This document shows, piece after piece, positions 21,301-42,443 of a DNA stretch of 43,254 nt (positions are counted from its first letter, which is position 1; each line of letters begins with the position of its first letter). Source of the DNA: Flavobacteriales bacterium (GTDB lineage: Bacteria; Bacteroidota; Bacteroidia; Flavobacteriales_C; GCA-002722245); assembly GCA_947444925.1 (NCBI GenBank), contig CANFBW010000025.1:1-43254 (forward strand). Direction: 5' to 3'. Both the position numbers and the translations under genes were made by a program. The notes beneath the pieces are model-generated. The model made no database searches. It was given only the letters and a program-made list of their open reading frames with translations, and was not told the DNA's origin.

Positions 21301-22820
21301 CAGCGGTAGCAAGTGGCGCTGGCACAGCTACGATCACTGCACCAACAAGCGGCACAAACGTAGCTACTGGTGCTTTGGCAACGTTACTAAACAACACCAG
21401 CAACGCTCCAGGCATCATCACTTTTACAATGAAGCCAAGTGCGGCAGGTTGCACCGGTACTGACGCCCCTATCGCCATCACAGTGAATCCTTCACCAGAC
21501 GCGAAGTTTATTTCGGGTTCACTTTCTATATGCTCAGGTGCGACGACAGATTTAAAAATCAATACCAGCATTTCTATTCCAGTTACCTTCGATTGGACGG
21601 CTGCGAGCACAGATGTAACAGGATTTAGTCCAACTGGCACGTCAACTGCTTTGCCAACAACCATTGCGGAAGTATTGACCAACGCTGGTTCGGCAAACGG
21701 ATCTGTGGTTTACACCATCACTCCATCAGGTGGCGGCTGTATTGGAACACCACTTGTAAAAACGGTGGTTGTAAAACCAATTCCTGTTGCAACGGCAACC
21801 AACAACGTTTTAGAATTGTGCAGCGGAAGTGCCACTTCTATAGCCTTGAGCTCACTGACCCCCGGCGCTACTTTTGATGTAACTGCTGCAGCAAAATTCA
21901 GTAAAGCAAGTGGAATGCATTCAGAAAGTGCTTTGATCATTGGATCAAGTATTCAACAAACCCTGTCTTCAACAGGAACGGATACGGTAACTTATACCAT
22001 CACTCCAACAGCGGCATCTTGCGCAGGTTTGCCGATCAAAGCAAAAGTGACGGTGTACGAAATACCTATTTCTGACGCAGGAACAGCAGCTCCTTATTGT
22101 GCTGGTGACAGCGCAATTATTGGAGGAAGCTCTGTGCTTGGCTACACTTACTTGTGGTCACCCGCTACAGACCTAAGTGCAACCAACATTTCAATGCCCA
22201 CAACAACTGCAAAAAGCACTACGCCATATACGGTTACTACAACATTAACCGCATTTCCGTCTTGTTCTTCTAGCGCGAACATAACGGTAGCAGTTTCACC
22301 TCAATTCACGGTTGATGCTTTACCTGATTTTGAAACTTGTGCCAACCGTTTGACACCTTTGACATCAAGTCCTTCAGGACTTGTATTGTATACTTGGACA
22401 GACAGTATTTTCAAAACAACCCAAGATGGTCAGAACATTCAAATTCAAACAGAAAATACAAACACGTATTATCTATTGTCATCTAATGGCGGTTGTTTGG
22501 CGAGAGACACAGTAACGGTGAGTATAAAAGACGATTTCAAACCGACACTATTCCTTCCAAATGCTTTCACGCCAAACAATGATGGCACAAATGAAATCTA
22601 CCGAGTTGGAGCGTTTGGCGTTGAAGAATTTGAAGCCATGATTTTCAACAGATGGGGCGAGAAAATTTTCACCTGGAATGATGTAAATGGAGGTTGGGAT
22701 GGAACACGAAATGGACGTTTGGTGCAAGAAGATGTATACATCATTGCAGTGCGCGTAAAAAACATTTGCGACCTCGAATTCAACGATTACCACAGGGGTA
22801 CCATTACCGTACTGAGGTAG
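15375..22820 (+). CDS. Giant secreted protein: RCC1-like repeats, PKD-like repeats, T9SS type-B C-terminal domain
   Basis: A 2481-residue surface or secreted protein. The signal peptide ends near NSYAQ (residue 33). Residues about 45-455 carry RCC1-type beta-propeller blades, each with a W-G-x-G or SWGGN motif and often QLGNG (VWSWGGNDKGQLGNG, VYSWGQGLNGSLG, YYAWGCGANGVLG). A Cys-containing Ig-like domain covers about 465-550, and a beta-rich unknown domain about 610-830 ends in a Cys cluster. PKD-like domains follow: one at about 945-1036, two copies of a 178-residue unit at 1037-1394, further Ig-like domains to about 1660, then six PKD-like repeats of about 90-105 residues to about 2235. 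The last 93 residues (FLPNAFTPNNDG, then FNRWGEKIF and GWDG) are the gliding-associated type-B sorting domain. It therefore should cross the outer membrane by T9SS. Adhesion is the likely role; no catalytic motif was seen. Confidence 0.93.
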   Translation: MMIPKVSTPILGKLKKSVSLFVLFILAVNSYAQRDLGISGGNNVSSMVCANKQIYVWGQGNSTPTPVVFPGGLTISQVNSGSGGHYVALACDKTVWSWGGNDKGQLGNGICCANVATPTKVKASPTLPAAFRNASNELINADVIYAGNENSFAIMKDGSLLSWGGNTNTGAYGNSNQGQLGNGKVGDQYFADYVVDCAGAPLKGVVQVFAGDNCAYALVDVDGDGIGTVYSWGQGLNGSLGRNAAGTANPKDAATVISNRACPVQYSAPEHIPGDMNNIRAISCSDGTGQALDVDGYVWTWGNGGWNNATGNTTVSYTGSDPRRVLKGSTTGASNDGTYLLAKQIGGGQGYGMAVTVDGKPVAWGGGGCTDGGATGNGTMTGSGATGTGYIKFGPGVNDVHSTVIQINRGDLWGFYQTADNKYYAWGCGANGVLGTGNNTNLPYATNLVPPTACGFRDPIPEVLLTPGDTAVCASSLTGITLKSGFIISAALAPSYKLNWYKDNGLVKTGTAATDINYTATTPGTYKVEVIYIGLNAGCDPYDTARAEMTISTFPVTFTVPTNLTYCGATGTVNVNSTAATKPAYIWYPTAVSTTPMDTTIASGTTIINLAGITAAGNGDKCVWVEEGSYASGSVFKKTQGLDATWSNMEFLNPGAQTNTVESGFTVTEAMTLTSTQIRMSDEMYGAGTHSGTMTFGVYKSKTNNGGLVADDANKIGTFTYSWSRTAAAAGNVFTDATVAINVNLPSAGVYFISLDNSTLVGAGNVKIGKGASNGQVTTLLKDDSNGSLISFTNSSVNGNPQTGGNLNQGNFFNINFQSSQHYCDRKQLCLKQQCPCQQPASVTITAVPTAVAKVVTVCPSSAITLSGTYIAGTTPASVVDAIRFVWYKKGTTPGAYALAPVANKVLTGIPADAGMWYLRVEDGAAGTASCYREDSVTIVFSTVPAPTAMTAKICSGSAFSVTPVNVTNGVVPAGTTYTWSAPTGTGFSGGTAQAVDQTSIGQTLTNTATGISTAVYSVTPKTGTCSGTPFNVTVSVEKDVDAAVAGTATSTCAALFQLGATPVTNGTGTWTSVPSTGITYTTANANSPTATANGLAAATAYTFTWKVSNGAGATCPDKQATVVITRTDITSATPVSTQTKTICSSAAAPLLNTTGVATLKLQETGTWAATGPATINATTGQTAGLVTGANVFTYTITSTIASCTPSVGTVTITVEKEVDASVAGTPDATCATSYQLGATPVTNGVGTWTASPSTGITFTANANTATAVAATLTANTAYTFTWTVSNGAGAKCPDKVSTVLIAQAGDITSATPVSTQTKTICANIAAPLLNTTGVATLKITESAAWSAVSPATITPLGQTGALALGDNVFKYTITSLVPGCAPSIGVVTITVLPLPGPADPIVGLQTVCAGTAGVTYTVPVVSGIGYNWTRPAGSTITAATADSSSITVTFGNTDGTFDFVATPKNSCGTGTPSKLTVTVKKNLTPTVTISGPTEICGGGNATFFVSGSTDGGTAPTYEWYVGLLKQSSTTTSFSTTTLANNDIITVKMTSNEGCVTTAKVTSNAIQVKVVGMVRPKVTLDPKFACKGVAQTITAYPENEGDATAVFEWKLNTVIVQTGTGRTYTSSAFVNGDVLEVQLTSNLSCAGPSKIADTSAVIDVRPVPVATAVDASVCSKVKSVVQMKSNTSGTVFTWTTVAPSGISGSNPAGGNSTPTDSTISENLSTSLLAAGDVVYTITPTAGTCVGAAIQAKATVKPLPSAIATDDLLCDGKTSNIPLTSDVTGATFNWTASGVGVTGQLADNTGTLTNIAQPLINTGTVNGTATYVVTATLAGCSGTAKTVNAVVKPTPVLTPVTPPAICSGAKANITLASNLATATSYGWLGATLSADITGIVSPNTGAKIDDALINSGTADATATYSVVPVSLGCIGIAANINITVKPKPVLTVTSTLATICGGNDPGIDVQSSVSGTTYNWTAVASGAGTATITAPTSGTNVATGALATLLNNTSNAPGIITFTMKPSAAGCTGTDAPIAITVNPSPDAKFISGSLSICSGATTDLKINTSISIPVTFDWTAASTDVTGFSPTGTSTALPTTIAEVLTNAGSANGSVVYTITPSGGGCIGTPLVKTVVVKPIPVATATNNVLELCSGSATSIALSSLTPGATFDVTAAAKFSKASGMHSESALIIGSSIQQTLSSTGTDTVTYTITPTAASCAGLPIKAKVTVYEIPISDAGTAAPYCAGDSAIIGGSSVLGYTYLWSPATDLSATNISMPTTTAKSTTPYTVTTTLTAFPSCSSSANITVAVSPQFTVDALPDFETCANRLTPLTSSPSGLVLYTWTDSIFKTTQDGQNIQIQTENTNTYYLLSSNGGCLARDTVTVSIKDDFKPTLFLPNAFTPNNDGTNEIYRVGAFGVEEFEAMIFNRWGEKIFTWNDVNGGWDGTRNGRLVQEDVYIIAVRVKNICDLEFNDYHRGTITVLR
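18483..19547 (+). repeat. Tandem duplication of a 534-bp unit inside the giant gene
   Basis: Unit 1 (18483-19016) encodes VEKDVDAAVAGTATSTCAAL onward, and unit 2 (19017 to about 19547) encodes VEKEVDASVAGTPDATCATS onward. The two agree over their length, including QLGATPVTNG, YTFTWxVSNGAGA, SATPVSTQTKTIC and APLLNTTGVATLK. They are in frame, and synonymous differences are many, so the duplication is not recent. Confidence 0.9.
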
Positions 22821-29363: not shown

Positions 29364-30551
29364 ATGACAAACAACAGAATAATCGCCATAGATTTCCTGC
29401 GTGGATTTACAATAATGATGATGATTTTGGTAAACAACCCAGGATCATGGAACCATTTATTCACCCCGCTATCTCACTCCCATTGGAACGGATGTACTCC
29501 TACCGATCTTATTTATCCTTTCTTTATTTTCATTGTAGGCGCATCCATCGCCTTTGCCATGCAAAGCAAAAAATCGGTCCCACAGGAACACCAAAGCTTG
29601 ATTCTCAAAATCATTAAGCGGGGTGCCATCATCATCGCTCTTGGCATTCTAAAAGACAATTTCCCGTACTTCACACTTGACCAAGGCAGCTTTCACGCTT
29701 GGCTACCCGACCAATGGCGCTTACCTGGCGTATTACAGCGCATAGGTCTCGTATTTATTTTCACCGGAATTCTCTTTGTGAAAACAAAAATAAAAACGCA
29801 AATCATTGTACTCGTAACCCTTCTTTTGGGCTATTGGTGGTTGATCAATATAGAAATACCTTCTGCCTACATAAAAAATTTAAACCTACCAGGCGCTCAC
29901 AATTTCTCGGCCTGGTTCGATGTTCAATTATTGAGTGCAGACCACTTGTGGAAATATTCGAGAACAGAGGGCTGGGATCCTGAAAGCCTATTAGGAACTC
30001 TTCCTGCTATTGGCACTTGTTTGCTGGGACTGATCGCTGGACAAATCATTCGCGGCGAAAAAACTTTGCTTAACAAAATAAAAACACTCGCCTACACCGG
30101 TCTAGCGCTAACGGTTTTGGGCCTTTTATGGAATCATGTATTCCCCATCAACAAAAGCTTGTGGACCAGCTCCTATGTACTGTTCAGTGGAGGCATCGCA
30201 CTTATGTTCACTGCACTTTGTTTGTGGTTCATGGATTACAAATCCTATCAGCGCGGCACCGGCACCTTTCTGTATTTTGGATCCAATGCCATCGTCGCTT
30301 ACCTGGGCTCCGAAATATTGAGCACAATCGCACATCTTGTGCCTTGGAATGCAAGTCAATCACTATCTGAAGCAATGGCAAACGCTTTGCTGTCGCTATT
30401 CAGCAGCGCATCCTACGCCAGCATTGACAGTAATCATCCCGATTACTTTTACGCACAACTGGCTTCTCATCTGTACGCGCTGCTGTGGCTGATCCCCTTC
30501 TATTTTGTGTTGCGCTACCTGTATCAAAAAAAGATATTCATCAAAGTATGA
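29364..30551 (+). CDS. HGSNAT-like membrane acyltransferase (DUF5009-type)
   Basis: A 395-residue integral membrane protein with about ten transmembrane helices. The N terminus RIIAIDFLRGFTIMMMILVNN is the hallmark of the family, which includes human heparan-alpha-glucosaminide N-acetyltransferase. It has the conserved HSHWNG motif (His40-Trp41-Asn42-Gly43) and TDLIYPFFIFIVGASIAFAM, then WRLPGVLQRIGLVF near residue 116. Family members move an acetyl group from cytosolic acetyl-CoA to an amino sugar outside the membrane. It points toward the NagB-PIG-L gene and shares a bidirectional terminator with it, so an amino-sugar substrate is plausible here. No enzymatic proof exists for the bacterial homologues known to me. 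Confidence 0.9.
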   Translation: MTNNRIIAIDFLRGFTIMMMILVNNPGSWNHLFTPLSHSHWNGCTPTDLIYPFFIFIVGASIAFAMQSKKSVPQEHQSLILKIIKRGAIIIALGILKDNFPYFTLDQGSFHAWLPDQWRLPGVLQRIGLVFIFTGILFVKTKIKTQIIVLVTLLLGYWWLINIEIPSAYIKNLNLPGAHNFSAWFDVQLLSADHLWKYSRTEGWDPESLLGTLPAIGTCLLGLIAGQIIRGEKTLLNKIKTLAYTGLALTVLGLLWNHVFPINKSLWTSSYVLFSGGIALMFTALCLWFMDYKSYQRGTGTFLYFGSNAIVAYLGSEILSTIAHLVPWNASQSLSEAMANALLSLFSSASYASIDSNHPDYFYAQLASHLYALLWLIPFYFVLRYLYQKKIFIKV

Positions 30552-30623: not shown

Positions 30624-32525
30624 TTACAATACTTCTCCTGCTTGAAAATTCCATCTTCTGAATGCTTCCATGGCTTCGTATTCAGGTAAGCCAAGCGTAT
30701 CATAAAGTTGCGCAGTATCTTCATTACGCTCTTTAGCACGTTGCCAAAATTCGCGACTGTCGTTACCCGGAAACACTGGTACATCTTTTTGCGACTGGTG
30801 TTTGAAGATCGCCATTTTTTTACGCGTTACTTCATTTGGACTCAATGGCACTGCCATGTGAATTTCGTGGATTGGCCATTCATGCCATGCACCGCGGTAC
30901 ATCCATACATAACAATCCTGCATGAATTTTTCGCCTTTCAAACGATTTACAGCCTCAACAATAATATCTAAACAAACCTTGTGCGTGCCATGTGGATCCG
31001 CCAAGTCACCTGCCAAATAGATTTGATGTGGTTGAATTTTTCGAATCAAATCCATCGTGATTTTGATGTCGTCTTCTCCAAATAAATTCTTTTTCACTTT
31101 ACCTGTTTCATAGAAAGGCAAACTCATGAAATGTGCATTTTCATCAGGCACACCGCAATATCTGCATCCCGCTTTGGCTTCCATTCTTCTGATAGCACCT
31201 TTCATTGCGCGAACGTAGGCCGCATCGTCTGCACCAATTTCTTTTTGATTGAACAACGTTCTAACGCGATTGTAAAAATCTTCTGCTTTGTCTTTTGGCA
31301 AACCAATAATTTCAGCAGCTTCGCGCATAAAATCAGCGTAGCAAATTACGTCGTCATCGTGAACGGCGATGTTTCCCGAAACCTGATAAGCAACGTGCAC
31401 GTCGTGGCCTTGATCTACCAAGCGAATAAAAGTACCGCCCATTGAAATAACGTCGTCATCAGGGTGTGGACTAAATATGATGGCGCGTTTGAATTGCGGA
31501 CTCGGTCTCTCAGGACGATTTTGTCCTTCAGTCCCAGGCTTACCGCCTGGCCATCCAGTGATGGTGTATTTAATGCGCTCAAAAGCTTTAATGTTGATTT
31601 CGTATGCAGATCCGGCCTTTGAAACCAAATCCCCCATGCTGTACTTGTTATAATCCTCATCGGTCAATTTCAAAATTGGTTTTTTGAGGTGCAAAGCCAG
31701 CCACATTACAGCGTTGTACGTCAACTCCTCCGTCCAATCGCAAGCGCCCACCAACCAAGGTGTTTTGTGTCGCGCCAATTCCTCAGAAGCTGCTTTATCA
31801 ATAACAAATGTAGTATCGGGATGATTTTGCAAATAAGTAGCAGGAACTTGGTGCGAAACATCTCCTTCCACCGTTCTTGCAAGGATTGACGCTTTGCCAA
31901 TACCCCACGCCATGAGGTAAACTGTTTTTGATTTAAAAATACTACCAACACCCATCGTAATGGCTGTACGCGGTACATTTTCTTCACTAAAGAAATCAGA
32001 TGCCGCATCTCTACGGGTAATTCTATCTAAGGTAACAATTCTTGTTTTTGATTGCACTGCTGAACCTGGTTCGTTAAAACCAATGTGACCCGTGCGACCA
32101 ATACCCAACAATTGAATGTCGATACCGCCGGAAGCAACAATGTCTTCTTCGTATTTCTGACAAAAATTTTCTACATCCTTAATATCAATAGCGCCATCAG
32201 GAATATGTACATTTTCTTTTTTGATGTCGATGTGGTTGAATAAATTCTCGTGCATAAAGCGATGGTAGCTTTGTATCGCCGCTGGTTGCATTGGAAAATA
32301 TTCATCGAGATTAAAAGTCACCACATTGGCAAAACTCAATCCGTCCTCTTTGTGCATGCGAATGAGTTCCTCATATAACTTCAAAGGAGATGATCCCGTT
32401 GCCAAGCCCAAAACTGTTTTTTCGTTTTTTTTGTTTCTTGATTCAATCAGCGTACGAATTTTATCGGCAACAAATTTTGATCCCGATACATCGTCATTGT
32501 AAACAAGCGTTTTAATCTTTTCCAC
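30624..32525 (-). CDS. nagB: Glucosamine-6-phosphate deaminase fused to PIG-L-type deacetylase-like domain
   Basis: A 633-residue cytoplasmic fusion. Residues 1 to about 280 are a NagB domain (glucosamine-6-phosphate to fructose-6-phosphate and ammonia): LGLATGSSPLKLYEEL near 39, TFNLDEYFP near 70 with the catalytic Asp of NLDEY (Asp74), and LGIGRTGHIGFNEPGS at 140-155 with His147. Where classic NagB has Asp-Gly-His, this protein has Thr-Gly-His. From about 347 on lies a PIG-L/LmbE-type domain starting FSPHPDDDVISMGGTFIRL (zinc ligands in HPDD) with a later ADPHGTHK motif. Long NagB proteins of this layout are known in Bacteroidota. The second domain may deacetylate GlcNAc-6-phosphate, making the protein a NagA-NagB bifunctional enzyme; this is inference. 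Confidence 0.93.
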   Translation of the reverse strand: MEKIKTLVYNDDVSGSKFVADKIRTLIESRNKKNEKTVLGLATGSSPLKLYEELIRMHKEDGLSFANVVTFNLDEYFPMQPAAIQSYHRFMHENLFNHIDIKKENVHIPDGAIDIKDVENFCQKYEEDIVASGGIDIQLLGIGRTGHIGFNEPGSAVQSKTRIVTLDRITRRDAASDFFSEENVPRTAITMGVGSIFKSKTVYLMAWGIGKASILARTVEGDVSHQVPATYLQNHPDTTFVIDKAASEELARHKTPWLVGACDWTEELTYNAVMWLALHLKKPILKLTDEDYNKYSMGDLVSKAGSAYEINIKAFERIKYTITGWPGGKPGTEGQNRPERPSPQFKRAIIFSPHPDDDVISMGGTFIRLVDQGHDVHVAYQVSGNIAVHDDDVICYADFMREAAEIIGLPKDKAEDFYNRVRTLFNQKEIGADDAAYVRAMKGAIRRMEAKAGCRYCGVPDENAHFMSLPFYETGKVKKNLFGEDDIKITMDLIRKIQPHQIYLAGDLADPHGTHKVCLDIIVEAVNRLKGEKFMQDCYVWMYRGAWHEWPIHEIHMAVPLSPNEVTRKKMAIFKHQSQKDVPVFPGNDSREFWQRAKERNEDTAQLYDTLGLPEYEAMEAFRRWNFQAGEVL

Positions 32526-32695: not shown

Positions 32696-33739
32696 CTAAT
32701 AATTACGTTTCACAATTTCCTTATATGGAGCGTCAACAGTAAGTATCACGAAGTCCAACAATAATTTTGATTTACTATTTTGTTCCGGACCAGCACCCAA
32801 GCCCATTCCCAAAGAACCAATACCTGCCGTGGTGGTGAAAGGATGCAGGTTCACGAATTCTGAAAATTTAATTGACACCATTCTCCATCCATCCCAATCG
32901 ACACTAATGTTGTTGTTTTTAGATTCCATCACTGAACCTGATTCCAAATTCACCATCTGACCTTCCAATGAAAGCTGCAATTGCGTATTCGGATGTGTAG
33001 AGTTGTACCCTCTGATGTACATATTCAGATAAATACGACTTGGATCGGTGACACCTGCACTCTTAAGTATGTTCAATTGTGCAATAATGCCTGAAGAGAA
33101 ACCTCCGTAGTACCATAGCTTGGCTACCGGACTGGCCGTAGAGTCAATAACAGCGCCGTAGTAAAGCATTGCTTTTCCACCTTGTGCCGAAGTGTCTTTC
33201 ACCACACTTGCAGTGCGCACAACTTGTTTAACAAGGTCATTGCCCCATCCACCCAAGATACTGTAGGTGCTGGGAGAATCGAAATCAATAATCATGGTGC
33301 CAAAATCAATATTCTTCATTGCAGGCTTCTTGGAATAGGTATAATGCAAGGTAGTGCTGCCTAAACCGCAGCCTAACTCAAGCACAACAGTGCAAGGCTC
33401 TGCTTGAAAGAAATGTTCACTGGACGAATTCCCATAGAAGTCAACATTCAGTGAATCTGTTTTCGCACTGAACGTTTTAACTGCTTGCGAATGATCGCCT
33501 TTGATAGTCAATATCCAATCCACAGGCTCGCTGAAAGCCGCAATTATATTCAGCTTTCCAACAGACGGATCAACCGTAGTGCTGCTAATTGCGAAAGGCG
33601 TTGTGAATTTAAATGCCGAGGTAGGACAAACAGTTTCACCCAAACTTTCTTTCTTGTGACAGCCCGCCGCCATCAAGGCAGCGCACAAAAAGAGTGCAAA
33701 GTGAGCAAAAGAGATTTTATGTTTTGAAGTCATAAACAT
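32696..33739 (-). CDS. Outer-surface lipoprotein with Ig-like and CBM-like domains (paralogue of the next gene)
   Basis: A 347-residue lipoprotein, lipobox MAAGC with Cys27. Residues about 45-130 look like an Ig-like beta-sandwich (AAFSEPVDWILTIKGDHSQA). The rest resembles a jelly-roll carbohydrate-binding domain: it opens with MIIDFDSPS near 155, has IYLNMYIRG near 240 and ends with VDWDGWRMVSIKFSEF and LLDFVIL. The WxGWxxVxxPFSxF-type motif is common in CBM11-like and CIA30-like modules. It is a clear paralogue of the lipoprotein upstream in the operon (33745-34872). As last gene of a chitinase operon it may bind chitin or its oligomers at the cell surface; no direct evidence. It is not a SusD homologue. 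Confidence 0.8.
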   Translation of the reverse strand: MFMTSKHKISFAHFALFLCAALMAAGCHKKESLGETVCPTSAFKFTTPFAISSTTVDPSVGKLNIIAAFSEPVDWILTIKGDHSQAVKTFSAKTDSLNVDFYGNSSSEHFFQAEPCTVVLELGCGLGSTTLHYTYSKKPAMKNIDFGTMIIDFDSPSTYSILGGWGNDLVKQVVRTASVVKDTSAQGGKAMLYYGAVIDSTASPVAKLWYYGGFSSGIIAQLNILKSAGVTDPSRIYLNMYIRGYNSTHPNTQLQLSLEGQMVNLESGSVMESKNNNISVDWDGWRMVSIKFSEFVNLHPFTTTAGIGSLGMGLGAGPEQNSKSKLLLDFVILTVDAPYKEIVKRNY

Positions 33740-33744
33740 GAATT

Positions 33745-34872
33745 TTAATATTTAGGAACAAATGGACCGCCTTCAGACAGGATAATATAATCAACATCAG
33801 CTGCTACATCGCCGCCATACTGTGGATCAGAAAGCAAGGAAACCGCCATAGCGCAAATTTTCCAAGGCTCCTTGATGTGATTGCCAGCGCCGCCTTTAGT
33901 TAAATCGTTGTCAACTCTAAACTCTGAAAAAGGAACACTCACCAATTTCCAGCCTTCCCAGGTTACACCAACAGTGCTGACCCATCCATCGTTTTGGCCT
34001 TGCATTGGCGTGGTAAAAACAAAATTGGCGTCGGTCATAACATCTACCAAGTTTTGTGGAGAAGTTGCTGCATCGTACTCGTAAATTTTCAATGCAATTG
34101 CCGAATTTGGCTTGCCTGTTCCACGAATGTATAAATTGATGTAAAAATTTTCTGGCGTTGTTGAAGCCACATTGTCGGCCACTGTTGCACTCACCATCTC
34201 ATTCAAATTCGTATGGTTCATACTCGCTATCCAACCATTGTTGTTGTAGTCGATGCCATTCATGTGAAAAGCACTGCTTCCATTGATAGGTCCAATGCTT
34301 GCAATTGCATAAGCTGGTGAACCTAAATCAGCCATGTCTAACGACACCGATTTCATCCCAGCTGTCCCCATGTGATTGCCATCAAAATCTTCCACCAAAA
34401 GATAGCGCACATTGTCAACAGTACGTTTGTGGTAAGACATCAATTTATCAATCACCAATTTTGCAGAAGAGATAGCCGTGTCAATTCCTTGCACGTACAA
34501 AGAAGCAGTACAACTGTCGCCCTTTCTAAAAAAAACAGTGCTCGTTGCATCGCCTTCCCAAACAGCATTCGTATTGTCAATAACAGTTCCCGTTCCCTTG
34601 ATTTCTCTGACGGCGTGTGATGCTTTTCCTTGAATCACAATTTTCCAAGAAACATCCGTATTAAATGCCGCCGAAAAAGACAATGCCGTACCCACCAATT
34701 TGTTGTTGACGTTGAAGTCGATCAGCGCATGATTAACGGTCAAAGCTGTGTTGGCAAGCAAAGGATTGCTTGAAACAAAATAGGTTTTCTCACCCACTAA
34801 GGTCTCTCTCGTACAGCCAGTCGCCATAATGACGATGAGCGATAGAGATGTAAATATTATTTTTTTATACAT
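33745..34872 (-). CDS. Outer-surface lipoprotein with Ig-like and CBM-like domains (first paralogue)
   Basis: A 375-residue lipoprotein, lipobox MATGC with Cys20. An Ig-like domain covers about 55-135 (SAAFNTDVSWKIVIQGKASHA), then a jelly-roll module from about 155 opening with LLVEDFDGNHMG, continuing with FYINLYIRGTGKPNSAIALK and ending with VTWEGWKLVSVPFSEF and DVDYIILSEGGPF. Each of these blocks aligns with the 32696-33739 protein in the same order, so the pair arose by duplication. The module has the look of a carbohydrate-binding domain. It follows the 569-residue beta-barrel gene by 11 bp and precedes its paralogue by 5 bp. Confidence 0.82.
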   Translation of the reverse strand: MYKKIIFTSLSLIVIMATGCTRETLVGEKTYFVSSNPLLANTALTVNHALIDFNVNNKLVGTALSFSAAFNTDVSWKIVIQGKASHAVREIKGTGTVIDNTNAVWEGDATSTVFFRKGDSCTASLYVQGIDTAISSAKLVIDKLMSYHKRTVDNVRYLLVEDFDGNHMGTAGMKSVSLDMADLGSPAYAIASIGPINGSSAFHMNGIDYNNNGWIASMNHTNLNEMVSATVADNVASTTPENFYINLYIRGTGKPNSAIALKIYEYDAATSPQNLVDVMTDANFVFTTPMQGQNDGWVSTVGVTWEGWKLVSVPFSEFRVDNDLTKGGAGNHIKEPWKICAMAVSLLSDPQYGGDVAADVDYIILSEGGPFVPKY

Positions 34873-34883
34873 AGTAGTAGCGC

Positions 34884-36593
34884 TTAAAATTTGCCTGTGT
34901 ATGATAAAAGCAATTGAGAAATGTTATACGATCCCGCAGTAAGCAAAGTATTGTTGTAGTTCACCATATTGTAGTGCACTGAAAATGCTTGCATGGTAGA
35001 GAATCTCAACTGCGCGCCCACTGATGCGATGCCTTCTGTTGAGTTCACACTAACAGCTGTTAACGCAGTGACTTCGTTGAAAGCGTTTCTTGGTGCCTGA
35101 AATTCATTGCCATTGGCCATCAACATTTTGTAACCGAAAAGCAAATCAATTTTTTTCACCACCTCAAAAGCAACACCAGCATCTGCAACAGTGCTTGCCA
35201 AGTCAACTTTACCTGCACCCGCTCTGCTTGTTTTTTCCATTCTGCCGCCTACTGAGAAGTCCAATTTACGGCCCAAGGCCATCATCTTACCAATTTCCAA
35301 TTTAACACCTCCTTTAACCACCATGAAGTTTCTAAGGTCAGTTGTTCCTTCACCAACGATCTCATTCAAATAATCAACACCAGCTTCAAAATTGATGTTT
35401 TTCATCGCTGTATCAGACGACACCATAAGGGAAGCGCCCATTCTATTTGGCGTTGCTTTGCCATAAGGCTGAGCGTTGTTGAATTCATTCAAATAAGGAG
35501 ACAACACATAAGCAATTTTGCTATTGTACAATTGTTCTGAAGTCATTCTATCGAACAAAATTGGCGCACGCATTACGCTTGCGTTGTTTACCATTCCAAA
35601 CAATGATGGATTCATATTGTCAACCACTCTTCTTGTTTGAGCAGTTGGACTGTTGAAATATTGTCCAACATCGGTTACGTTCAACGTAAATTTAATACCA
35701 GGTCCTTTCAACGCCAATTGCGCAGTCAAATCCAAAAAGTAATCTTGAAAAGATTTAGTCGTGTCATTCACTGCCGCTTGATTTTTGTAAATGAAGCTTG
35801 ATGCACCACCTTCAAACTTCACTGTCAATGCAGAAGCATCAGAATTCTTAATGTATTCAACATCTCCTGTTCCTACATAATTTTTGTACGAATATTTAGC
35901 CGACTGAATGTCAACATCACTCAAACCAACATAAGTAGCACCGATCTTCAATGACTCACCGCAGTGCACGCCCAATCTTCCACCCGACAGCAATCGGTCA
36001 GAAACGCTCATTTCATTGGTAGCGGTTGTTCTGGTTACAAAACCATAGGCACCCACTCCGCATTTTTCAAATTCGTGTTTGTATTGCAAATGCGCACCTT
36101 GCAGCAACCATCCGCTGCCCACATTCATGTTTTCATATTCAGAAATACTTCTTCTAACTTGAAAAATTTCAGACTCGTATTTGTGGTACATGTCGCCAAA
36201 ATTAAACACTGTAAAAGGAGTCAGCTCAACGCGAACATCTCCAATTTCATATTTAAATTCTTTGATCTTTCCCATCAACTTAAACTGACGAAACTCAAAG
36301 GAGTTGGCACTTCCGTAAAAGGAACCAAACTCACTGCGCACCCTGTACACCGCCATGGCTTGAAAAGCAGAATCTACTGCCAAATTATTTTGAAGGTCAA
36401 AAAGGTTGTAACCGCCCAATCCCGCGCTGTGCGTTTTGGTGTCCCCAGCCATAATATTCCCGCTCAATTGGTTATTAGTAATGAAAGACCTGCCTAAACC
36501 GTTCAAAGAAAATTTAGCTGGGCTTTGTGCTTGAGAAGAAACTCCAAAAGCTACTATTAACGCCGACGTAAGTAATAATTTTTTGTTTTGCAT
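34884..36593 (-). CDS. Outer-membrane beta-barrel-like protein, 569 residues, function unknown
   Basis: The protein has a signal peptide (MQNKKLLLTSALIVAFGVSS, cleavage after QAQ) and a chain of alternating polar and hydrophobic strands ending in YTGKF, the C-terminal Phe typical of beta-barrel outer-membrane proteins. Segments such as AMAVYRVRSEFGSFYG near residue 80, FRQFKLMGKIKEFKYEIGDV and repeated short beta-hairpins fit a porin-like barrel. No TonB plug or SusC-like N-terminal domain is seen. It is the third gene of the chitinase operon, 12 bp after the 711-residue barrel, so a role as glycan channel or as anchor for the two lipoproteins is possible. Family could not be named. Confidence 0.8.
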   Translation of the reverse strand: MQNKKLLLTSALIVAFGVSSQAQSPAKFSLNGLGRSFITNNQLSGNIMAGDTKTHSAGLGGYNLFDLQNNLAVDSAFQAMAVYRVRSEFGSFYGSANSFEFRQFKLMGKIKEFKYEIGDVRVELTPFTVFNFGDMYHKYESEIFQVRRSISEYENMNVGSGWLLQGAHLQYKHEFEKCGVGAYGFVTRTTATNEMSVSDRLLSGGRLGVHCGESLKIGATYVGLSDVDIQSAKYSYKNYVGTGDVEYIKNSDASALTVKFEGGASSFIYKNQAAVNDTTKSFQDYFLDLTAQLALKGPGIKFTLNVTDVGQYFNSPTAQTRRVVDNMNPSLFGMVNNASVMRAPILFDRMTSEQLYNSKIAYVLSPYLNEFNNAQPYGKATPNRMGASLMVSSDTAMKNINFEAGVDYLNEIVGEGTTDLRNFMVVKGGVKLEIGKMMALGRKLDFSVGGRMEKTSRAGAGKVDLASTVADAGVAFEVVKKIDLLFGYKMLMANGNEFQAPRNAFNEVTALTAVSVNSTEGIASVGAQLRFSTMQAFSVHYNMVNYNNTLLTAGSYNISQLLLSYTGKF

Positions 36594-36605
36594 TTTTATA
36601 AATTA

Positions 36606-38702
36606 TTAGAAGAAAATTTTAAACTCTATTGTTGTTTCATTGCCTTGGAAAACATCTCTCGTGAAATTAAAATCCTGATGCGTCATGTATCTTTGACGCA
36701 AATGGATATTCATTGTTCTAGAGATATCATAGTCAATACCAAAGGCCATTGTTGTTCCAAGTTGATTGATCACCCTGTCTTTAGCAGCATAAGCAACATT
36801 GTCTGAATCCAACACCTTATCAGGAGAAAGATCTACCATCGTGCTGCCGTGTACAGTTTCAAAACCCAGCTCGCCAACGACCGACAAATTTTTGAAAATA
36901 CTGTAGGCCACTGTCAAGTCTTCATAGAACACGGAGATGAAAGTATTCTCGTTCATTCCTGGAAGCGGAGAAAATCCTTTTTGTACCGAGTTAAAGCTGT
37001 TGTAGTTCAAAATAATCAATTTGTGTTTGCCAATTTGGTACTGCCCTTTCAACAACAATTCAGCAGCATTGAAGCCCTTAACATAAGCGCCACCGCCTGT
37101 TTTTGTGGTATCAATGGTAATGGTTTCATAAGTACGAAACCAAGCCGATTTAACTCTGTGGTAAGGACCATCCGCTTGAAACCAAGGTCGCATTCTTGAT
37201 CTTGAGAAATCATTCACGCGGTGCTGAATGGTAATGGTATCGTGCGTGTTTTCAATTTCAGATCCGAAAGCATAGCCAAACTGAATTCTGATGTTTTTAC
37301 CCAAACCGCCTTCAGCTCTGAAGTTTACACCCTGACGATTATTGGCGATTTGTCCAACCTCTTGTGACAAATTAGGAAGGTATAAAGCGTCATATACTTT
37401 ATCAGTAGTATAACCACCCTGACCTAAAGTTTGATTAGAGTTCATAATCGATCCGTCTAAACTCGCCATTCCTTTATTGATGTGGTAGTACTCAATAGAG
37501 AAAGGCACCAACACAATACGCTTGTCGAATTCTGTTTTAAAATAGTAGCCTTGTCCTATTGGCGCAGATGCGGCAGTACCCGGATTTTCAATTTTACCAA
37601 TACCAAACTCACCCGACACATTTACCTTTTTGATTTTAAAACTAAAATCCAAAGTCGTCACGGTATTGTTATCGGGCGCTTTGTTTTCAAATGATACCTG
37701 AGCGCGTTTCGCGTAAAAATTCAAACCCATAGTTCCCGACATGAAGCGTTCGAAAACCACCTTTTCCAACTTCACCACTCCTGTATAAGACGGGAAATAG
37801 TTGATACTTTGCGACAGAATCACGTTGGAACTCGTTCTTCCAAACATACCGCGAACGCCCACCTGCAATGGCAAATATTTGGTTTCAAAAACAACCCCAG
37901 TCATAGCGCTACCGCCCAATCCTTGAGTTCCGATATTGGTTGACATAGAGAAGTATTCTTCAAAACGCTCAAAACTTCTTCTGTACCAATCCCAAGGCAA
38001 ACGATTGAAATAGTTGTCTCTGTACTCCGCTTGTCCCATTGTGAATTTGCTCATTTTCAGCCACAGGATTTCTCCAGCAGTAATTGAGGTTTCAAAGAGA
38101 CCACTTCTCACTCTACCCGAAAAATTAATGTTTTGTCGCGCACTAATACTTCTGCTTCCGCCATTTTGCACATCTCCTGTGAAAATTGGCGACAATGAGT
38201 AACCGACGTTGAAATCGATTTTACTTTTCAGTTTAGAGGAAATATTCAACTCCAACATCGGATAACCACCACCATTGGTGGTACCAACGTTTGCAGTAGG
38301 ATAATCCGAAAACGCAATGCTCTTTTCACTAGTGATGTTGTCGTCATAGGCCTTTTGCATGTCGCGGTAAACTACCAAGGCACGCATTACCCCCGACACC
38401 ACTACATCATCGGCAAACAAAGCCTTGCCTTCATTTCCGCCCAGATAATTAAAATGGTCGTTCAATTTTGTGCCGCTGCCAAATTGAGCGTAGTTCGGTT
38501 GCAGCATTAAGCTCGTCGTTCCAATAAAAGGAACTTGGTGCTCTTTGCTGAAACTAAAGTGTACGCGCAACGACAAGGAGTCGTTGGCCCTTTGTATTGA
38601 ATCGTTTGCGTGGCCGCCGGCAAAGGCACTGCCACAGCCCAACAGCAAGCCAAAGGTACCTAGCAAACGAAAGTTGCGTTTATGTGAAATCTTATTCATC
38701 AT
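36606..38702 (-). CDS. Large outer-membrane beta-barrel-like protein, about 700 residues, function unknown
   Basis: I favour the Met at 38702 (698 residues) because it is followed by a proper signal peptide (KISHKRNFRLLGTFGLLLG, cleavage near SAFA); an in-frame ATG at 38741 lies 12 bp after the chitinase stop and is the alternative start. The mature chain is rich in amphipathic strands and aromatic girdle residues, and ends IEFKIFF with terminal Phe. It has no plug or TonB box that I can see. Segments like VMRALVVYRDMQKAYDD resemble AMAVYRVRSEFGS of the next gene, hinting at distant relationship between the two barrels. It is the second gene of the operon. Transport or surface assembly of chitin-active proteins is possible. 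Confidence 0.8.
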   Translation of the reverse strand: MMNKISHKRNFRLLGTFGLLLGCGSAFAGGHANDSIQRANDSLSLRVHFSFSKEHQVPFIGTTSLMLQPNYAQFGSGTKLNDHFNYLGGNEGKALFADDVVVSGVMRALVVYRDMQKAYDDNITSEKSIAFSDYPTANVGTTNGGGYPMLELNISSKLKSKIDFNVGYSLSPIFTGDVQNGGSRSISARQNINFSGRVRSGLFETSITAGEILWLKMSKFTMGQAEYRDNYFNRLPWDWYRRSFERFEEYFSMSTNIGTQGLGGSAMTGVVFETKYLPLQVGVRGMFGRTSSNVILSQSINYFPSYTGVVKLEKVVFERFMSGTMGLNFYAKRAQVSFENKAPDNNTVTTLDFSFKIKKVNVSGEFGIGKIENPGTAASAPIGQGYYFKTEFDKRIVLVPFSIEYYHINKGMASLDGSIMNSNQTLGQGGYTTDKVYDALYLPNLSQEVGQIANNRQGVNFRAEGGLGKNIRIQFGYAFGSEIENTHDTITIQHRVNDFSRSRMRPWFQADGPYHRVKSAWFRTYETITIDTTKTGGGAYVKGFNAAELLLKGQYQIGKHKLIILNYNSFNSVQKGFSPLPGMNENTFISVFYEDLTVAYSIFKNLSVVGELGFETVHGSTMVDLSPDKVLDSDNVAYAAKDRVINQLGTTMAFGIDYDISRTMNIHLRQRYMTHQDFNFTRDVFQGNETTIEFKIFF

Positions 38703-38753
38703 CAGATTGAAAATATTAATTTCTAATTTTTTGAATTGCATTGTTACGGAAGT

Positions 38754-40067
38754 CTATTTCCACCTTTTTTTGATGCGTGGACGAACAACTTGGTTGGTCC
38801 CAAAAGTATTCACCAACTCATCCACAAGTGGCGTTCCTGTTATCAAAGAAGAACCTGGTTTTTTTTCGATATAATCACCAAAAACGTCCCAGATAATTGC
38901 ACCCGCACATTTGTTTTTCACAATGTATTCCGCCTTTAACTTCACCGATTTTACGTTGTCAAACGAAACAAAAGATTTTTCATCTTCACTCACCAAATAA
39001 GGTACTTTAGCAACATCGTCCCAATATTCTTTGTAGCCATGTTTTTTGTACTCTTCCATGATATTGAAATACTGCGGCATTCCTTCGTGCTCAGCAAAAA
39101 CCACATCGTCTTGCTTTTTCTGATGCCCTGTTCTGTAGATAGTAATGGGTTGATCGCCATCAAACCCGCGCAATGTTCTGCCATAAAAAGCAACACCTAA
39201 ATTTAATTTTTCAGCAGGCACTTTGTATTTGGTCGTCATGAGACGGTAGGCCTCATCTAAACTTCCTTTGTAGCCTTTTGATGGGTTGTATAAAGGTGAA
39301 TTGTGATTGGCATCGTCACTCCAAGTACCATTGAAATCGTAGGTCATCATGTTGATGTAATCCATAAAGGGAGCAACAACATCCCATTGTATCTGGTCCA
39401 TTTGCGGAATGTTTGCGCCGTAGGCACCCGTGAGCAAAAATTTATAATCGATGGTTTTTCCATAGGCGTCAATAGAGTCGCGGATGGCCTTCATAAAGAG
39501 CGGGTAATTTGCTCTGTCTTGCGGCGTTCCGCTATGCTCTGCATAACCAGGATATTCCCAGTCAATGTCAATACCGTCGAATTGATAGTGTTTCAAAAGG
39601 CGCACACATTCCTGCGCAAAATGTCCTCTTTTTTTAGGATCTGCTGCAATTAAAGGAAAATTATCTGACAGCGTCCAACCGCCAATTGACACCATTACTT
39701 TTACACCGTATAAGTGCGCATAGTCTATCAAACTTGAATTGGGATAGTAGGCAGGCTGAGGCTTACTCCAGTCAATTCTGCCTTTCAGCAAAATGGTATC
39801 GGCCCAAGGATCCGTTCCTTCAATGTTCGCTTCTTTATCAGGCGAATAAAAAGAGTAATTTAAAATGGTGTAACGACTGTAGTCCAATACCTCAGGCACA
39901 ACACAACCGTTGCGCTTGTACATTTGCCAAGAAGGAAAGTATGCAATGATTTCTTTTGGATTGCCGGTGCTGGCGACAGCAAGATCTTGTTTCTGCTTTT
40001 GTGCATTCAACACTTGACAAAAACTGGTGCACAATACTGCGAAGGCAATGAGAATGGGTTTCTTCAT
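38754..40067 (-). CDS. GH18 chitinase, secreted
   Basis: A 437-residue glycoside hydrolase family 18 enzyme that cleaves beta-1,4-GlcNAc linkages of chitin. The signal peptide runs to about NAQ (residue 23). The barrel motifs are all present: KVMVSIGGWTLSDNF (SxGG) near 124-137, FDGIDIDWEYPG with catalytic acid Glu171 and the assisting Asp167 and Asp169, and MMTYDFNGTW near 239. The insertion GYKGSLDEAYRLMTTKYKVP and the following GVAFYGRTLRG belong to the chitinase insertion domain of subfamily A. No carbohydrate-binding module and no T9SS C-terminal domain are visible; the chain ends in a basic KKRWK tail. It is the first gene of a five-gene operon with two barrels and two lipoproteins. Confidence 0.95.
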   Translation of the reverse strand: MKKPILIAFAVLCTSFCQVLNAQKQKQDLAVASTGNPKEIIAYFPSWQMYKRNGCVVPEVLDYSRYTILNYSFYSPDKEANIEGTDPWADTILLKGRIDWSKPQPAYYPNSSLIDYAHLYGVKVMVSIGGWTLSDNFPLIAADPKKRGHFAQECVRLLKHYQFDGIDIDWEYPGYAEHSGTPQDRANYPLFMKAIRDSIDAYGKTIDYKFLLTGAYGANIPQMDQIQWDVVAPFMDYINMMTYDFNGTWSDDANHNSPLYNPSKGYKGSLDEAYRLMTTKYKVPAEKLNLGVAFYGRTLRGFDGDQPITIYRTGHQKKQDDVVFAEHEGMPQYFNIMEEYKKHGYKEYWDDVAKVPYLVSEDEKSFVSFDNVKSVKLKAEYIVKNKCAGAIIWDVFGDYIEKKPGSSLITGTPLVDELVNTFGTNQVVRPRIKKRWK

Positions 40068-40416
40068 AATTCAAACTTTTAAGCAAAGCACCTGTGATTT
40101 TAATTTCTTAAAATCCTAAAACTTTGCATTTAAATAAAAAATCGAAAACGTTTACAAGAAAAGTAAAACGAAACCCTAGTCCGACGAATGTATAAAAATA
40201 TATTCTCCTTCCAAACATCTTTGCATAATATTTTTGTGCGCCCCCCTACTTTAGGCATCACATTTTCTTTTCTTGCCACCTTCTACCGCAACTAGCGCAG
40301 AATGTTACAAGAAAAATAAAAACTTGACAATCACGCTAAATAAAAGATTTTCCAGAAAAAAAAAAGCCCCACTTCGCAAGAAGCAGGGCTACAAACAATC
40401 TTTTTATTTGGGGTAT
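40068..40416. other. Non-coding region between the chitinase operon and pfkA
   Basis: 349 bp with no supportable gene. It must hold the chitinase-operon promoter, but no exact TAnnTTTG box is seen on the minus strand. The pfkA terminator is at its left end. Confidence 0.55.
40355..40390 (-). terminator. Rho-independent terminator of the gap-pfkA operon
   Basis: On the minus strand AGCCCTGCTTC pairs with GAAGTGGGGCT (two G-T pairs) around TTGC and is followed by ten T. It lies 26 bp after the pfkA stop. Confidence 0.85.
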
Positions 40417-41412
40417 TTAAATAGACAGTATGTTTGCTACACGCAAAACTTCTTCATCAACATAATCTTTCTCGATGATGGCATCTTCAAATGAAGTATA
40501 AACGACTTCATTTTTAATCATTCCCGCCATCACATTCTTTTTACCGGCAATCAAACCTTCTACCGCTGCAACACCTAAACGGCTTGCTAAAATACGATCG
40601 AAAGAGGTTGGATTTCCTCCTCTTTGAATGTGTCCGAGAATAGTCACTTTAGCATCAGAGTAATTCAACTTTTCGCATACTAGTCGAGCAATCTCAACAG
40701 TTGAACCTAACTTACAACCTTCTGCAACCACTACTATACTGGATGTTTTTTTACGCAATCGACCTTTTTCAAGTTTCTCAACAATGGCATCAATACTTCC
40801 TTCTTTTTCGGGAATCAAAATATCTACTGCGCCAGAAGCCAAACCTGTGTTGGCGGCAATAAAACCAGAATTACGGCCCATCACTTCCACAAAAAACAAG
40901 CGGTTGTGCGACATAGCTGTGTTACGGATATTGTCAACTGCACTAATAGCTGTGTTGGTCGCTGTATCAAAACCAACGGTATAATCTGTTCCGTTCAAAT
41001 CATTGTCTATTGTTCCCGGAATACCAATTATTGGAATGCCGTGTTCTTTTGACAATAATTCAGCACCAGTAAAAGTACCGTTACCACCAATCGCAACCAA
41101 AGCATCAATTTTGCGCGCCTTCAAATTTTTGTAGGCTTTCAATCGGCCTTCCGGAGTTCTAAACTCCTCGCAGCGCGCTGACTCGAGAATGGTACCACCT
41201 TTTTGCAAAATCTGATTAACAGAACGAACATCCATCTCATCGATAATGTCGTTGTCAATCATCCCCTCATAGCCACGGTAGATACCAGACACCGTTAATC
41301 CGTAATACACCGACGAACGAACGACTGCCCGAATGGCAGCGTTCATTCCCGGTGAATCTCCTCCTGAAGTATAAACTCCTATTTTCTGTATCTTCTTCAA
41401 TGCTTCAGCCAC
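40417..41412 (-). CDS. pfkA: ATP-dependent 6-phosphofructokinase
   Basis: A cytoplasmic glycolytic enzyme converting fructose-6-phosphate to the 1,6-bisphosphate. The 331-residue protein has the ATP site GGDSPGMN (17-24), IPGTIDNDLNGTD near 131 with catalytic Asp136, MGRNSGFIA near 178 and the effector-site region typical of bacterial PfkA. One odd point: the GGDG motif that binds Mg-ATP reads IGGNGTFTGA, with Asn111 where E. coli has Asp103. It is 2 bp behind gap, so the two glycolytic enzymes are read together, and a terminator follows. It would take up fructose-6-phosphate coming from NagB. Confidence 0.96.
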   Translation of the reverse strand: MAEALKKIQKIGVYTSGGDSPGMNAAIRAVVRSSVYYGLTVSGIYRGYEGMIDNDIIDEMDVRSVNQILQKGGTILESARCEEFRTPEGRLKAYKNLKARKIDALVAIGGNGTFTGAELLSKEHGIPIIGIPGTIDNDLNGTDYTVGFDTATNTAISAVDNIRNTAMSHNRLFFVEVMGRNSGFIAANTGLASGAVDILIPEKEGSIDAIVEKLEKGRLRKKTSSIVVVAEGCKLGSTVEIARLVCEKLNYSDAKVTILGHIQRGGNPTSFDRILASRLGVAAVEGLIAGKKNVMAGMIKNEVVYTSFEDAIIEKDYVDEEVLRVANILSI

Positions 41413-41414
41413 AA

Positions 41415-42443
41415 TTATTTTTTACCTGTGAAGATAAGCGCCAACTCCGCCATACGGTGAGAGAAGCCCATTTCGTTATCGTAGAAACTTGTCATTTTAA
41501 CAAGTGTATTTCCGTTGCTAGGAACAACCAATACGTCATTCATAATCATTGAAGAAAAAGGCTCTCCAACGCAGTCTCTTGAACACTCGTAGAAATCACC
41601 GAAGTAAGCTACTTGTTTCAATATAGTACCGCTGTTGATTTTTTCAACGTTCGCAGTCATGGCAGCAGAGATTTCTGCAGCACTGTGATTTCCTTCAATT
41701 AAGTAAACAGCTTCAACAACAGAACCAGTATCCGTTGGAACTCTCAATGCAGTACCATTCAATTTACCGTTCAAGTGAGGAAGAACTTTTCCTACCGCTT
41801 TAGCAGCACCTGTAGATGCAGGAATAATGTTGTTTAATGTAGCTCTGTTTTTTCCACCACCGAAAGCATCCGCAACTTTTTGAGTAGCTGTAGCAGCATG
41901 TGTTGTAGAGATCAAACCAGAGATTACTTTAAAAGTATCGTCTAATGCTTTAGTCATTGGCGCCAAACAGTTGGTAGTACAAGAAGCGTTAGATACAATT
42001 TTATCGTCAGCGCTGATTGAATCGTGATTAACACCCAATACCACTGTTTTTGTAGCATCGTTACAAGGAGCAGAAACAATTACTCTTTTCGCGCCTGCAT
42101 TGATATGTGCTTGTGCTTTTTCAGTAGTCAAGTAAAAACCTGTACATTCAAAAACAACATCAACATCATGAGCAGCCCATTTAATATTATTGGCATCTTT
42201 CTCAGCGTATACTGTGATTGTATGTGTACCTACTTGAATAACATTGTCAGAAACTAAAGTAACTGGAACTGGAAATCTACCAAAAATAGAGTCTTTTGGA
42301 AGTCCACTTGCAATTTCTGAAGCGGGCACTAAGTCGTTACCTGCAACGATTTCAATTTGATCGTTAAATTTTTCAACGATAACTCTCATTACGTTTTTGC
42401 CGATACGGCCCATTCCATTGAAAGCAACTTTAATTTTAGCCAT
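41415..42443 (-). CDS. gapA: Glyceraldehyde-3-phosphate dehydrogenase, divergent type I
   Basis: A 342-residue glycolytic enzyme oxidising glyceraldehyde-3-phosphate with NAD and phosphate. The NAD loop is NGMGRIG (9-15), the active site SNASCTTNCLAP holds Cys155, and His182 in STTHAATATQK is at the standard 27-residue spacing. IPASTGAAKAVGKVLPHLNGKLNG and the terminal SFYDNEMGF are present. Differences from classical GAPDH include the Met in the glycine loop, LRVPTDTGSVVEAVYLIEG in place of RVPTPNVSVVDL, and DNEMGFSHR in place of DNEWGYSNR. It is thus a divergent branch, still with all catalytic residues. First gene of the gap-pfkA operon. Confidence 0.95.
   Translation of the reverse strand: MAKIKVAFNGMGRIGKNVMRVIVEKFNDQIEIVAGNDLVPASEIASGLPKDSIFGRFPVPVTLVSDNVIQVGTHTITVYAEKDANNIKWAAHDVDVVFECTGFYLTTEKAQAHINAGAKRVIVSAPCNDATKTVVLGVNHDSISADDKIVSNASCTTNCLAPMTKALDDTFKVISGLISTTHAATATQKVADAFGGGKNRATLNNIIPASTGAAKAVGKVLPHLNGKLNGTALRVPTDTGSVVEAVYLIEGNHSAAEISAAMTANVEKINSGTILKQVAYFGDFYECSRDCVGEPFSSMIMNDVLVVPSNGNTLVKMTSFYDNEMGFSHRMAELALIFTGKK

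Follow-up and report, generated by a model that had tools for sequence, protein, structure and literature searches.

How might a member of the Bacteroidota bind, import and break down chitin with no SusC/SusD pair at the locus? The question is raised by a five-gene operon in a 43,254-nucleotide stretch of DNA (hereafter the window), which forms contig 25 of an assembly of 3.24 Mb from the Bacteroidota (genome G000). Five open reading frames (ORFs) occupy the minus strand from 32696 to 40067 in the order GH18, B711, B569, L375 and L347. They encode a GH18 chitinase of 437 amino acids (aa; 38754–40067), two plugless outer-membrane beta-barrels of 711 aa (B711; 36606–38741) and 569 aa (B569; 34884–36593), a surface-glycan-binding-like lipoprotein of 375 aa (L375, with C20; 33745–34872) and a second lipoprotein of 347 aa (L347; 32696–33739). 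The initial annotation had placed the five genes on one strand at exactly these positions and proposed an undescribed surface apparatus for binding, cutting and importing chitin or a similar GlcNAc polymer. Use of such a glycan remains the best explanation of the operon, which is a chitin-directed variant of a system so far known for cellulose, neither categorically new nor ordinary. We consider it probable that the five genes make up a polysaccharide utilisation locus (PUL) that is independent of SusC/SusD, targets chitin (or a soluble GlcNAc polymer) and is homologous to the cellulose cluster chu_1276–1280 of Cytophaga hutchinsonii, and that it acts by the mechanism proposed below.

The C. 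hutchinsonii cluster has been described as an ‘atypical PUL’ for cellulose, comprising two outer-membrane proteins, two proteins resembling surface glycan-binding proteins (SGBPs) and one endoglucanase (PMC12016534). We located it in genome G1066, taken as C. hutchinsonii because a 375-aa ORF there has every residue printed for CHU_1279, namely the aromatics W89, F92, F180, Y253, F256 and F343 and the four domain-boundary residues Q48, E204, E212 and Q375. Homologues of B711, B569 and the lipoprotein lie upstream of this ORF and a GH9 gene lies downstream. B711 aligns with CHU_1276 at 25% identity over 633 columns (E 1.6e-44; profile match on CHU_1276, E 3.9e-175), and B569 with CHU_1277 at 34% over 613 columns (E 1.9e-95). 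CHU_1278 is matched by L375 (25% over 322 columns, E 1.5e-27) and more distantly by L347 (E 1.3e-11), while no window protein matches CHU_1279 at E 1e-3. By their homology to CHU_1276 and CHU_1277 the barrels fall in a SusC-independent family already characterised for a different substrate, and the system cannot be called undescribed.

The two clusters have homologues of both barrels and of CHU_1278 in a shared order, and each has one hydrolase without a type IX secretion system (T9SS) tail, two surface lipoproteins and no SusC/SusD. They differ in the enzyme, which is GH18 and encoded first in the window but GH9 and last in C. hutchinsonii; in the second CHU_1278-type lipoprotein, which replaces CHU_1279 with its tandem carbohydrate-binding modules (CBMs); and in the position of the window operon beside nagB, with barrels in a separate 100/100 clade. 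Since the operon enzyme is a GH18 and not a GH9, we regard the operon as a variant of the atypical PUL and not as a cellulose locus. A separate cluster of cellulose type lies on contig 1 of the window genome; its proteins are 43, 48, 30, 42 and 58% identical to the five of C. hutchinsonii, and their order is unchanged.

Experimental work on C. hutchinsonii gives the homology functional content. Cellulose use suffers when chu_1276, 1277, 1279 or 1280 is deleted or disrupted (PMC12016534, PMC5553014, PMC6247017), and CHU_1279 binds cellulose (PMC12016534). CHU_1277 is reported to be involved in the assimilation of cellooligosaccharides (PMC5553014). The GH9 enzyme CHU_1280 is reported to be in the periplasm, but was seen outside the cell as well (PMC6247017). 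Import of long chains into the periplasm has been proposed for C. hutchinsonii, and the 2018 proteomic study stated that the proteins for capture and transport were not known (PMC6247017).

The GH18-type operon recurs, in agreement with the initial annotation’s expectation of a conserved gene order. The five genes keep their order in same-genus and same-family genomes wherever the contig is long enough, and the order GH18–B711–B569–lipoprotein–lipoprotein is also found in three genomes (L226, L227 and L231) of two other families, in C. hutchinsonii’s order. A second copy in the window genome, on contig 67, is cut at the contig end, and in sister genomes an SSF symporter gene lies inside the operon. 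The B711 tree groups its 12 GH18-type rows in one 100/100 clade on a long stem; in the B569 tree 10 GH18-type rows, together with a GH18-less copy, form one 100/100 clade (11 rows). CHU_1276 and CHU_1277 sit among the GH9-type rows. Because the GH18-type rows form one clade in both trees, the putative chitin-type barrels seem to have a single origin within the genome sample and to have diverged in step with their enzyme. What is new here is thus the GH18/chitin version, conserved in three families and forming a single 100/100 clade in both barrel trees. The GH18-less copy consists of the four downstream genes on contig 42 of G003 (L041/L133), a genome that retains a complete copy (L042). This set is preceded by proteins of 1461 and 1623 aa, the nearer of which (1461 aa) has a CHU_C T9SS tail, and is followed by LiaF/histidine kinase/LytTR genes.

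Beyond the GH18 type, the core of two barrels and a CHU_1278-type lipoprotein is spread across the phylum. Few candidates were scored per genome, so counts with the B569 profile are lower bounds: at least 49 of 395 sampled Bacteroidia genomes, a set that includes all close relatives; at least 23 of 394 near-complete Bacteroidia genomes (in both counts G278 is a spurious 62-residue match); at least 14 of 393 genomes in C. hutchinsonii’s order; and at least 9 of 392 genomes sampled over the phylum, six of the nine in other classes. The context of 80 B569 homologues could be read. A B711 homologue lies directly upstream in 77 of them and a CHU_1278-type lipoprotein directly downstream in 76, with both in 73; the exceptions are mostly contig ends or untrimmed ORFs. 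A tblastn search with B569 proteins returned no match on plasmids. Core genes also occur in G863, G1007, G945, G831, G993 and G874 (L168–L173), all outside class Bacteroidia, and the family is therefore either older than the class or has moved between classes.

The usual partners of the core are GH3, GH16, a GH2-like TIM barrel, a CBM30 tandem lipoprotein, an SSF symporter and a regulator. Together with its GH16/GH3 set the core is, judged by gene content, a predicted beta-glucan locus without SusCD. Such loci (B711–B569–SGBP–CBM30–GH3–GH16–SSF) share the core triplet, the SSF symporter and the presence of hydrolases with the GH18 type, but have their own GH16, GH3 and GH2-like enzymes and a CBM30 tandem protein where the GH18 type has its GH18 and a second lipoprotein. 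The slot filled by L347 is accordingly held by CHU_1279 or by the CBM30 tandem protein in other versions. In two further loci (L054, G002:C15, and L058, G004:C107) the core triplet is accompanied by a CHU_1279-like lipoprotein of half length (219 aa), and in L054 a GH97 gene adjoins; this type possibly serves yet another substrate, an alpha-glucan. A limited literature search found no published description of the SusCD-free beta-glucan loci, and the CHU_1279 cluster was reported in 2025 solely from three closely related cellulolytic species (PMC12016534); there is a slight case that the phylum-wide homologues of the core are unpublished.

The evidence points to the core as a general SusCD-free platform and a phylum-wide alternative to SusC/SusD. 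With the GH18 version in three families and beta-glucan enzymes across the phylum, what had been a cellulose oddity takes on a general character, and natural barrel pairs with different substrates become available for comparison. Genomes that depend on the core, such as those of a family without any SusD, become predictable, and PUL finders that use susC/susD as markers would overlook these loci. The core also bears on the question of how cellulose crosses the outer membrane in C. hutchinsonii and its kin without SusC/SusD. More tentatively, the core may be a second class of importer for polysaccharide chains in the outer membrane, one that has no TonB plug and occurs across the phylum, re-targeted to beta-glucan, cellulose or chitin by barrel divergence and enzyme exchange, with cutting mainly in the periplasm.

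Glycan use in Bacteroidota normally depends on a SusC/SusD pair. SusC and SusD are absent at the locus, as the initial annotation had it, and neither SusD family (PF14322, PF07980) was found in ten genomes of the window genome’s family. Plug-type TonB receptors give 13 matches elsewhere in the window genome. Compared with a canonical SusC/SusD PUL, the window operon has a co-located hydrolase, surface binders and an outer-membrane polysaccharide route in common, but lacks any SusD member or TonB plug, and its barrel families are unrelated by sequence. The chitin locus of Flavobacterium johnsoniae is reportedly a SusC/SusD PUL of this canonical kind.

Pfam and NCBIfam scans of B711 and B569 gave no family matches, and the 49 homologues of B711 matched no Pfam family apart from sporadic weak porin hits. 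The absence of a TonB plug was borne out twice: PF07715 was found in neither barrel nor in their homologues (49 and 64 alignment rows), and no plug domain was modelled by AlphaFold2. The models are large beta-barrels, of about 22 strands for B569 (pLDDT 91, pTM 0.86) and about 22–24 strands for B711 (pLDDT 76). In B569 the residues P-G-A-T-P-N-R, within 376–384, are highly conserved. Searches of PDB sequences with the barrel and lipoprotein profiles returned no real relative (A4 no match, A5 one weak unrelated match at E 0.03). Structural comparison against the PDB (Foldseek and VIA-align) gave ties among generic barrels, including ushers, AlgE, OprD-type porins, TonB receptors and BT1763; the chitoporins 7vtz, 7vu2 and 5mdq were among these many matches. 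Because so many generic barrels tie, no fold family can be named for either protein, and the lack of a better match is uninformative.

The two lipoproteins are paralogues, as had been proposed, though distant ones (21% identity, alignment A3), and their SGBP-like character is supported by homology to CHU_1278. A match of L375 to SGBP_B_XBD at 188–326 falls below threshold (E 6e-4, 20.4 bits against a cut-off of 26.4), and CHU_1278 itself has no Pfam match.

The identity of the operon enzyme is clear. Its GH18 domain scores well above the Pfam cut-off (PF00704, 2.1e-68, 231.7 bits against 29.6), it carries the catalytic motif DGIDIDWE of the DxxDxDxE type, and the solved relatives that match best are chitinases (5gzu, E 1e-88), nearly all of the best 60 PDB matches being named as such. 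By eye the protein has an N-terminal signal peptide, and its basic C-terminus, RPRIKKRWK, is conserved. When the tails of the operon GH18s were compared, neither a T9SS tail nor a lipobox was found; the window genome has eight GH18 matches, and other GH18s there have T9SS tails. The orthologue in G007 (L051:7160–8923) carries an OmpA peptidoglycan-binding domain fused at its C-terminus; this architecture is unusual and locates that chitinase in the periplasm. On the missing T9SS tail and lipobox, the OmpA fusion and the T9SS tails of other GH18s, the operon enzyme is probably periplasmic, and the proposal that cutting takes place in a surface apparatus needs to be revised.

Downstream of the operon lies a gene for a NagB-like glucosamine-6-phosphate deaminase fused to a PIG-L deacetylase domain (30624–32525, minus strand; NF002557, score 1010 against a cut-off of 384), which comes next after the operon in most of the GH18-type loci known from the window genome’s family. 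From the location evidence for GH18, the SSF symporter of the sister operons, NagB and the long-chain import model of C. hutchinsonii, we infer a route of binding outside, passage through the barrels, periplasmic cutting and uptake by symport. T9SS-tailed chitinases encoded elsewhere in the genome would open the polymer outside the cell. L375 and L347, as two-domain CBM-like lipoproteins on the outer membrane, would hold the chitin chain and probably stabilise the barrels, while B711 and B569 together may form the route by which chains or long oligomers reach the periplasm. There the operon GH18 would shorten them, an SSF-type symporter would move the products inward, and the adjacent NagB protein would pass the amino sugar into glycolysis.

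Several points weigh against this scheme. The presumed substrate, chitin, is deduced from GH18 and NagB alone, GH18 enzymes also cleave other GlcNAc glycans, and NagB is not adjacent in the GH18 loci of the two other families. The probable location of GH18 is argued from absent signals and one fusion, and CHU_1280 was recovered equally from periplasm and medium (PMC6247017). Profile searches of the PDB found no relative of the barrels that shows their mode of transport. SusD is present as well in two core carriers, G010 and G425, and in the latter it lies about 7 kb away on the contig of the core; the core therefore does not always replace SusCD, and both can coexist. In the G425 locus (G425:C35, L177) B711 is read as two ORFs of 290 and 424 aa and is possibly frameshifted.

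Among the alternatives, the operon could have the same transport role with GH18 at the cell surface, so that only chitobiose or GlcNAc diffuses through the barrels. Plugless barrels show no evident energy coupling, and CHU_1276 is reported to be involved in uptake of a small sugar, glucose (Zhou 2016, cited in PMC5553014). The operon GH18s, unlike the T9SS-tailed GH18s of the same genome, have neither T9SS tail nor lipobox, and together with the GH18–OmpA fusion in G007 this makes a surface enzyme unlikely in our view. We give still less credence to the idea that the barrels assemble or export lipoproteins and enzymes to the surface, uptake being left to an ordinary TonB-dependent receptor. 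The 13 plug-bearing receptors of G000 would allow it, and cells are reported to need CHU_1276 and CHU_1277 to maintain their cell-associated beta-glucosidase activity (PMC5553014), but the split of the barrels into enzyme-specific clades fits substrate channels better than a general exporter, and the genes found with the core are those of glycoside hydrolases and sugar symporters.

A role in turning over a GlcNAc polymer other than chitin (in peptidoglycan recycling, or with N-glycans or the cell’s own exopolysaccharide as the target) seems to us more doubtful again. GH18 does include endo-beta-N-acetylglucosaminidases (Pfam matches of the operon enzyme to EndoS and GH85 are weak), and the OmpA fusion puts one orthologue at peptidoglycan; against this stand the predominance of named chitinases among the solved relatives and the sister versions of the core, which accompany enzymes for environmental polymers (cellulose, beta-glucan). 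Chance adjacency of the five genes is rejected as next to impossible because of the synteny across three families, with 73 of 80 triplets intact. The chitin PUL with periplasmic cutting thus remains our preferred reading.

At the level of the transcript, the intergenic spacing along the five genes is 12, 12, 11 and 5 bp; the tight packing first described holds, while its range of about 5–50 bp narrows to 5–12 bp. The terminator noted at the operon end was confirmed directly 3′ of L347 (32642–32676, minus strand), as a hairpin with a 13-bp stem and a U-run (-16.5 kcal/mol, z -5.57, 0 of 200 shuffles as low). The nagB–PIG-L fusion gene starts after a gap of 170 bp and is likely on a separate transcript. 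Upstream, the phosphofructokinase (PFK, by Pfam) and GAPDH (by eye from sequence) genes at 40417–42443 (minus strand) hold a position conserved in same-family genomes; pfk has its own terminator at 40390–40365, and both genes are outside the operon. Matches to a Bacteroidota-type promoter pattern were no more frequent than chance, with none at the operon.

A further amino-sugar gene lies near the operon, close to the nagB fusion: a homologue of the NagX-like transmembrane glucosamine N-acetyltransferase (29364–30551, plus strand), below the NCBIfam cut-off. The named relatives of the window genome are metagenome-assembled genomes, whose isolate names indicate lake and groundwater samples. Elsewhere in the window, a giant secreted surface protein of 2481 aa (15375–22820, plus strand) carries RCC1 repeats, seven PKD-like stretches and a CHU_C type IX secretion signal.

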